From assembly GCA_016926235.1 (NCBI GenBank), contig JAFGOZ010000239.1:16279-80278 (forward strand): a DNA stretch of 64,000 nucleotides. Reading direction: 5' to 3'. The stretch is from Bacteroidales bacterium (GTDB lineage: Bacteria; Bacteroidota; Bacteroidia; Bacteroidales; UBA10428). Below are positions 942 to 1,804 of this stretch, piece after piece; position 1 is the first letter of the stretch; every line of letters starts with the position of its first letter. The notes below the pieces were generated by a model. That model saw only the letters and a program-made list of their open reading frames with translations, made no database searches and was not told the DNA's origin. The translations under genes and the position numbers were made by a program.

Positions 942-981
942 AATTGAACATATCTAGTCATTTAATTGTTAATATTTATCA

Positions 982-1011
982 TTGGGGAATTCTGTTTTAT
1001 TAGTAAATTTG
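982..1011 (+). promoter_or_regulatory. Bacteroidota-type promoter for the PID-type small gene and exosortase
   Basis: TTG at 982-984 is followed after 19 bases by TAAATTTG at 1004-1011, which fits the TTTG / TAnnTTTG consensus of the primary sigma factor in Bacteroidota. The start codon of the small gene lies about 20 bases downstream. No other start is nearby, so the site probably drives the small gene and the exosortase together. Confidence 0.6.
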
Positions 1012-1030
1012 ATAAGAGAATTATAGAATT

Positions 1031-1198
1031 ATGAAACGTGTAGTTGGAACATTGACATTACTCTTCTTTTTTGTTTTGTATGTATTGGGGCAGCCGGGTC
1101 CTAACCCTGCACCTGTGGATGGGGGACTTGGTATTTTAATTGCAGCAGGTTTATTTTTTGGGGTGTCGCGTTTACGAAAGAAGAGGAATGAACTTTAA
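1031..1198 (+). CDS. 55-residue protein with PID-CTERM-like sorting tail
   Basis: The ATG at 1031 opens 55 codons ending in TAA. The protein has three parts: a signal peptide (MKR plus a hydrophobic core, likely cut near VLG/Q at residue 20), a linker of about 10 residues rich in Pro and Gly, and a tail PVDGGLG + hydrophobic helix + RLRKKR. A short motif, a transmembrane helix and a basic cluster are the tripartite form of exosortase sorting signals; the P-V/I-D-G-G motif matches what I recall as PID-CTERM in Bacteroidota. An exosortase gene follows after 54 bases. After both cleavages only about 10 residues would remain, so this is a minimal substrate, a pro-peptide or a regulator. The family name is from memory and the role is inferred. 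Confidence 0.75.
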   Translation: MKRVVGTLTLLFFFVLYVLGQPGPNPAPVDGGLGILIAAGLFFGVSRLRKKRNEL

Positions 1199-1252
1199 GC
1201 AGGAATACAATTTCCTGTTTATACGCCATGAGTAATTCAAATTGTCCTATTT

Positions 1253-1804
1253 ATGGTAAATAAAATCAGGAAGTTTTACGAGAAAAGGTCAGATTTAGAG
1301 CTATTTCTTCTTAAATCAGGAGTTTTATATATCCTCTGGTTAGTATTAAAGTTATTATTTAATAATATTCCGGTTTTAATTCCTGTAGCAGAGTCAGTTA
1401 GCAGGGTGTATACTCAGTTTATCCTGTTGTCAGGAGAATTGGTACTTCGCATATTTGGATATAATCCGATTTTGGATGGGAACCACTTGTTTATAGACGG
1501 TTCGCGAGGAGTTACCATTGTAAAAGGTTGTCAGGCATGGTTTTTAATGTCCGTTTATGCAGGCTTTATTATTGTTTATCCGGGAAACAGAAAATCAAAG
1601 TACTGGTTTATAATAATTGGGTTAATTATCCTGGTATTTCTTAATATTTTGCGCATATCCGGTATGGTATTGGTCTCGTATTATGCACAGGAAAAGATGC
1701 GGCTATATCACAAATATATATTTAAAACCATTTTACACCTGAGTGTCTTTATAATGTGGTTGTTATGGGTTTCAAAGCACGGCAAGAAATTGATAAAAAC
1801 ATGA
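1253..1804 (+). CDS. Exosortase/archaeosortase family transpeptidase-like membrane protein
   Basis: This 183-residue protein has about five hydrophobic segments. Candidate catalytic residues are in the usual order: Cys93 in VKGCQAW, Arg134 in NILRISG, and a His at 153 or 162 in the segment before the last helix. The family cleaves C-terminal sorting signals in the inner membrane and may transfer the product to a glycan or other carrier. It is short compared with fused EpsI-type exosortases, as in the stand-alone Bacteroidota forms. The preceding small gene ends in a matching sorting signal, so the two probably form one transcription unit from the promoter at 982-1011. GCQAW replaces the more usual GC-S/A-G, which makes the exact subfamily uncertain. 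Confidence 0.8.
   Translation: MVNKIRKFYEKRSDLELFLLKSGVLYILWLVLKLLFNNIPVLIPVAESVSRVYTQFILLSGELVLRIFGYNPILDGNHLFIDGSRGVTIVKGCQAWFLMSVYAGFIIVYPGNRKSKYWFIIIGLIILVFLNILRISGMVLVSYYAQEKMRLYHKYIFKTILHLSVFIMWLLWVSKHGKKLIKT

Follow-up and report, generated by a model that had tools for sequence, protein, structure and literature searches.

What could an exosortase-type tail do for a protein that has almost nothing in front of it? The question is raised by a 55-residue protein encoded in the 64-kb stretch of Bacteroidales DNA analyzed here (the window), of which the initial annotation predicted that only about 10 residues would be left after cleavage by signal peptidase and exosortase, a figure that is right if the second cut falls near PVD (QPGPNPAPVD). 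That annotation had described a two-gene exosortase system, and it was borne out insofar as the tiny protein is a real, exosortase-linked member of a conserved family, while it missed the type IX secretion system (T9SS) type A cargo gene upstream, which is the usual neighbor of that family. The parts of the locus, all on the forward strand, are as follows.

1–941, forward: 3' portion of the gene for a T9SS type A cargo, with SprB repeats followed by a C-terminal sorting domain (CTD) at about 726–929; the gene starts beyond the left edge of the window
942–1030, forward: spacer of 89 bp from the cargo stop to the microprotein start
982–1011, forward: Bacteroidota-type promoter-like TTG-N19-TAAATTTG, from a pattern scan and weak alone
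1031–1198, forward: PID-CTERM microprotein, 55 aa, by NF046080 match and sequence layout
1253–1804, forward: exosortase, 183 aa, XrtX-like but divergent, below the cut-off of NF046081 and above that of TIGR04178

The signal peptide, PVDGG motif, helix and basic end that had been read from the small ORF are all present. Specifically, an n/h-region of 20 residues leads to a plausible signal peptidase I site between G20 and Q21 (by a simple site rule), and the predicted cut leaves a seven-residue linker, QPGPNPA, with Q21 at +1, in front of PVDGG (residues 28–32), a hydrophobic stretch or helix (33–46) and the basic tail RLRKKR (47–52). A comparison with PID-CTERM models had been suggested, and the protein matched NF046080 (PID_CTERM) over residues 28–51 of 55 with 39.1 bits against a cut-off of 26 (E 4.7e-10), so that by score and layout it is a member of this family. 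The remark that annotation pipelines often drop ORFs of this size does not apply to this one: its product has an entry in the protein collection, derived from a single contig and carrying the precomputed Pfam assignment PF28310.1, and a search of that collection with it gave no match except itself. A scan of genome contigs with the single protein as query likewise gave no match, and one with a four-sequence alignment gave three loci, among them one (L003) in which the HMM found no PID.

The exosortase ORF follows on the same strand after a gap of 54 bp. Its best-scoring family was NF046081 (XrtX), at 111.9 bits and thus 58 bits under the cut-off of 170, and for that reason we leave it unassigned to XrtX; the exosortase/archaeosortase signature TIGR04178 (47.1 bits, cut-off 23) and Pfam PF09721 (40 bits, cut-off 25.7) nevertheless place it, by sequence, in the exosortase/archaeosortase superfamily. 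In exosortases, Cys, Arg and His have a catalytic role, and in an alignment of seven sequences, including the one from the window, C93 (1529–1531), R134 (1652–1654) and H153 (1709–1711) were invariant. An AlphaFold2 model of the enzyme had a mean pLDDT of 86 and gave no match to the PDB by fold at E 0.001; a search of the PDB by sequence gave none either.

On the other side of the microprotein, the cargo gene carries SprB repeats (PF13573 in a Pfam profile search), and its ORF at 48–941 matched the sorting-domain model TIGR04183 with 38.3 bits, as did its last 110 aa alone with 29.3 bits (cut-off 23 in both cases); Pfam PF18962, at 25.7 bits, fell narrowly under its cut-off of 27. By the TIGR04183 model, then, the gene at 1–941 is a T9SS type A cargo. 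The promoter that had been placed ahead of the small gene is less secure than the exosortase behind it: the call at 982–1011 follows what we take to be the Bacteroidota promoter consensus, and the relaxed pattern TTG-N17..21-TANNTTTG occurred at 6 sites on both strands of the window, fewer than the mean of 10.8 expected from 60 first-order Markov simulations, which makes the motif weak by itself. Only its position inside the 89-bp gap counts, and this is suggestive. Scans of positions 700–2200 found no excess of E. coli-type promoters (6, against 8.3 in shuffles) and no terminator above shuffles. Beyond the exosortase, a convergent gene at 1850–2755 on the reverse strand encodes 301 aa with a lipoprotein-like start (LLIFTLSCK), and its product matched no NCBIfam or Pfam family above cut-off.

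Is the pairing of a small ORF with an exosortase particular to this contig? The initial annotation had tied its reading to two observations, homologs of the small ORF beside exosortases elsewhere and purifying selection on its codons, and both were seen in relatives. First, among the 30 loci of the order sample (393 genomes of one order) with the best matches to the window exosortase, 14 had a PID ORF, by HMM, directly upstream on the same strand; the exosortases nearest to that of the window (L209 at 40% and L210 at 35%) had no PID upstream. Second, pairwise comparison of three exosortase-adjacent PID genes (L217, L222 and L226) gave dN/dS values of 0.083, 0.117 and 0.044, with dS at 1.34, 1.01 and 0.43, two of the three thus exceeding 1. 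For these three relatives of the window ORF, such values (0.04–0.12) indicate purifying selection at the sequence level. The full row of cargo, PID and exosortase on one strand was found in the window and at L120, L148, L230 and L251, and also, with a degenerate motif, at L232, where a microprotein (1123–1419 of that locus) between a T9SS gene and an exosortase has PIANG in place of the expected PIDGG and matched no NCBIfam model. Exosortase-adjacent PIDs often had no T9SS gene upstream (L070, L074, L082 and L128).

Across the phylum, small size is the norm. In a sample of 296 Bacteroidota genomes, which among the genomes seen has a single one (G001) in common with the order sample, PID_CTERM gave 141 matches in 49 genomes, with up to 9 copies in one genome. 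Read from stop to stop, their frames had a median of 78 aa, and 140 of the 141 were shorter than 200 aa, a few of them ending at contig ends; hence the tail has not been taken over from longer substrates, and tiny proteins are the normal form of the family. The sole long-frame match is a 995-aa frame (L135) with the motif PIDGE, and the gene called upstream of it does not encode a T9SS cargo. The order sample had PIDs in 85 of its 393 genomes at E 0.001 (69 above cut-off), with no frame longer than 173 aa among the matches listed. Further, the family and the enzyme occur in the same genomes. The XrtX model was matched at E 0.001 in all 49 PID genomes, as against 91 of the 296 overall, with 35 above the cut-off and 14 below it, two of the latter scoring under 70 bits and so possibly representing other exosortases; conversely, PIDs were present in 35 of the 36 genomes with an above-cut-off XrtX. 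They are rarely encoded next to it, with only 6 of the 141 lying within 3 kb of an XrtX-model exosortase.

What would be left of these proteins after processing is short and uniform. A simple rule found a signal peptidase site in 110 of 135 unique PID proteins (8 of 143 matches yielded no new usable protein), and these had a median length of 65 aa, a lower bound because the last suitable ATG was taken as the start. Within them, a median of 11 residues preceded the motif, 30% of the linker residues were proline, and Lys and Arg were scarce, with 17 in 110 linkers. Q occupied the predicted +1 position in 93 of the 110, or in 70 when the scoring bonus for Q was left out, and an identical linker recurred in several proteins. 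In Bacteroidetes, an N-terminal Q is converted to pyroglutamate, according to the available text of PMC5837995 and PMC10653852.

If the exosortase is seldom the neighbor, a T9SS gene usually is. Our census comprised the 141 matches of the phylum sample and two from genome G002 (143 in all, with some exosortase-only regions left out). The upstream gene was on the same strand in 121 cases, at a median gap of 90 bp, and on the opposite strand in 17, with none in 5 because the contig ended. The same-strand upstream genes gave 119 distinct C-termini, each taken at up to 110 aa, and 106 of them matched TIGR04183. As a control, 140 genes were picked at random, without matching for size or strand, from the 562 other eligible genes in these loci, and 10 of them matched; the Fisher p of 4e-45 is only descriptive, since loci that share a genome are not independent. 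For the upstream genes we took the longest non-overlapping ORFs of at least 90 aa, and some calls are wrong, so that the 13 misses, which include metK, fumarase and aconitase-like genes, also include at least one spurious ORF that masks a real CTD (L104). The pattern recurred in the order sample. There, the 89 best-scoring PID matches of those listed (29 loci returned and 60 further ones) had an upstream gene on the same strand in 66 cases, on the opposite strand in 14 and none in 9, and TIGR04183 was matched by 49 of the 66. By eye, some PIDs precede a T9SS gene instead of following it. No domain dominated among the linked cargoes: in 105 first stretches, each at most 400 aa long, FG-GAP_3 occurred in 15, LTD in 10 and fn3 in 9. 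A partnership of the PID microprotein with type A cargo is thus well supported, and the two samples make chance a very unlikely source of the linkage.

The partnership concerns a subset of cargoes. In two genomes chosen for their nearly single contigs and six PIDs each (G194 and G115), all 12 listed PIDs had a CTD upstream within 0.7 kb. These genomes hold 97 and 91 CTDs, so that 12 of 188, or about 6%, were paired with a listed PID, and PIDs therefore do not answer a general need of the T9SS. The linked CTDs of each genome were more alike than random sets (p 0.0125 in G194 and 0.002 in G115, with the 30 best-scoring CTDs per genome and near-identical duplicates included), and for all nine linked CTDs examined, the nearest neighbor was also linked. 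Behind the other 51 CTDs of this comparison, a simple rule for small ORFs with a transmembrane tail found none.

A search of eight chosen genomes with several PID loci further revealed 14 shared blocks that cover a PID. Four of these extend from the CTD region to a point no more than 35 bp from the PID stop: one at L107 (608 bp, 99.8% identity), one shared by L152 and L154 (494 bp, 94.1%), one by L164 and L168 (711 bp, 82.4%) and one by L124 and L125 (510 bp, 83.5%). Another two begin only downstream of the cargo stop and finish at the PID, two end at the PID stop but extend more than 1 kb up the cargo, and six overrun the PID stop by 136–732 bp; flanks that decay faster could also set the block ends, save where identity is near 100%. 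In similar pairs, the N-terminal parts of the cargoes were often hardly alike, as in L152/L154, where identity was 0.97 in the CTD, 0.95 in the PID and 0.07 in the cargo N-part. Over 166 within-genome pairs, PID identity tracked CTD identity by Pearson (0.50, where the cargo N-part gave 0.30) and did not do so by Spearman (0.28, where the N-part gave 0.30). In some genomes, then, it appears from such blocks that CTD and PID can travel together.

Our preferred reading, which we hold tentatively and at somewhat less than even confidence, is that an XrtX-type exosortase cuts PID-CTERM microproteins into short, probably pyroglutamate-capped, proline-rich peptides, and that these act in partnership with the particular type A cargoes with which they are encoded, probably as surface anchors. 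The locus would then be a three-gene surface-display module of T9SS type A cargo, PID-CTERM microprotein and exosortase. The signal peptide would insert the microprotein into the inner membrane, signal peptidase I would free Q21, which would probably cyclize to pyroglutamate, and the helix and basic tail would keep a proline-rich segment of 10–15 residues at the periplasmic face. The XrtX-like exosortase, through its Cys-Arg-His residues, would cut near P-[VI]-D-G-G and transfer the peptide to an acceptor, either a lipid or a glycan. The cargo would meanwhile be exported and cross the outer membrane via its type A CTD. Since this CTD occupies the C-terminus, the cargo cannot have an exosortase tail of its own, and a separate micro-substrate encoded behind the cargo gene would solve the conflict by supplying that tail in trans. 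The processed peptide would finally help to retain, place or attach its particular cargo at the surface. In this scheme, we infer both cuts, the pyroglutamate, the acceptor, any contact between peptide and cargo, and the anchoring that would result. A variant in which a PorU-like sortase covalently joins the cargo to the N-terminus of the peptide is disfavored, because cyclization would leave the predicted N-terminal Q blocked, and Lys and Arg are rare in the linkers.

A stronger form of this proposal is possible, though we regard it as doubtful. A type A CTD and the PID microprotein downstream of it could together form a two-gene sorting signal, in which the CTD exports the cargo and the processed microprotein decides in trans whether it is kept on the cell or released. 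Type A CTDs lead either to static anchoring or to release, according to excerpts of PMC12618676, which leaves room for a partner that decides. What makes that decision is unsettled in the same excerpts, and the question becomes testable if some type A genes are followed by that of a partner. If true, the two-gene signal would match, on the type A side, the pairing known for type B cargo, where, in the sources as available, a PorP/SprF-like gene commonly lies directly downstream and shuttles or anchors the cargo.

This parallel can also be turned toward transport, in that a membrane-held microprotein might bring cargo with a linked CTD to the T9SS and be recycled by the exosortase cut. Such an escort would suit the position of PIDs directly behind the cargo, the CTD-PID blocks shared at some loci, the likeness of the linked CTDs and, by analogy, the way in which PorP/SprF shuttle type B CTDs as partial sources present it. 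We consider it unlikely, however, given that type A CTDs are served by PorV in the literature as available, that a low-complexity linker of about 11 residues offers little for specific recognition, and that most type A cargoes have no PID.

The uniformity of these linkers, their recurrence in identical form and the predicted Q at +1 would instead befit a signal: the exosortase could free a pyroglutamate-capped, proline-rich peptide as an extracellular message, whose gene would lie behind adhesin genes so that the two are expressed together. We judge this quite unlikely, as a single signal needs no gene per cargo, and as exosortases have been proposed to cut off the C-terminal tail and couple the end thus exposed to a second molecule, such that, in the available text of PMC7468200, the new C-terminus is attached and not released.

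The shared blocks allow a more neutral history, namely, that PID genes have spread by hitchhiking with duplicated T9SS 3' ends and are functionally unrelated to the cargo. The six blocks that run past the PID stop point this way, as do the PIDs that stand apart from T9SS genes and the near-identical CTD pairs that drive part of the CTD similarity. Against it, the linkage recurs in a second sample, in other genomes and with different CTD and linker types, and dN/dS is low; we regard hitchhiking as improbable. Finally, the microprotein might tune the exosortase, either as the pseudo-substrate that the initial annotation suggested or as an assembly partner. This reading has the 14 of 30 order-sample loci and the window itself in its favor, and it fits poorly and is highly improbable, because only 6 of 141 PIDs in the phylum sample lie near an XrtX-model exosortase and genomes hold up to 9 copies, mostly behind T9SS cargo.

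How does the proposed module compare with known systems? The substrates of PEP-CTERM/EpsH systems carry a signal peptide. The PID system resembles these systems in its motif, helix, charged tail and paired membrane enzyme (as available text of PMC1569441 and PMC7468200 describes them) and differs in that its substrates are nearly all microproteins with almost no passenger, encoded behind a separate secreted protein. With PID-CTERM/exosortase X (NF046080/NF046081), the module has in common a tail above cut-off, an exosortase nearest to XrtX and tight co-occurrence across genomes, and the window departs from it in an exosortase 58 bits under the XrtX cut-off. Like PorP/SprF-like partners, the closest analogy, which are thought, in partial sources, to anchor or shuttle cargo, the PID gene lies directly downstream of one class of T9SS cargo; PorP/SprF are outer-membrane barrels for type B CTDs, whereas PIDs are exosortase-tailed peptides behind type A CTDs, and we intend a comparison of how the two might work, with no claim of homology. 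Another Bacteroidota exosortase, XrtF of Flavobacterium johnsoniae, is encoded with an exosortase F-associated gene, and deletion of either lowers sand colonization and biofilm formation, as in T9SS mutants. XrtF belongs to a different exosortase family, and excerpts of PMC10936215, the source for this system, describe no PID partner and leave its substrates to future work.

Because the tail and the exosortase are named NCBIfam families, the parts of the module were already known. In full-text literature, where coverage of subscription journals is thin, we found no paper on PID-CTERM and none on an exosortase named XrtX (the string XrtX, among the matches listed, belonged to other fields). The available text of the literature that mentions both exosortases and type IX secretion did not describe the pairing of PID with T9SS, and the micro-size rule for PID substrates was not found in the literature searched. 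If true, the two-gene sorting signal would be the first link between an exosortase and the type IX secretion system, as far as these searches show. A partner encoded behind some type A cargoes would, in addition, assign exosortase X a class of substrates and a setting in which it acts, and the near absence of a passenger in those substrates would be accounted for.

Three further observations concern the family at large. First, a PID-like tail behind the type A cargo at L361 (genome G115) scored 21.9 bits with an HMM built here and was absent from the NF046080 matches, so that this model may miss some members. Second, at six loci (L257, L259, L261, L291, L307 and L319) the PID gene is directly followed by a gene with a shikimate kinase-like start, a name that we presume for it. 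Third, some PID frames (L075, L076, L078, L079, L106 and L142) extend N-terminally by about 60 residues with paired CxxC-like motifs (for example CHFCKSEE..PRPVGNYIVELK..CQSC); if they are translated, these extensions would resemble a small cytosolic zinc ribbon placed before the membrane segment.
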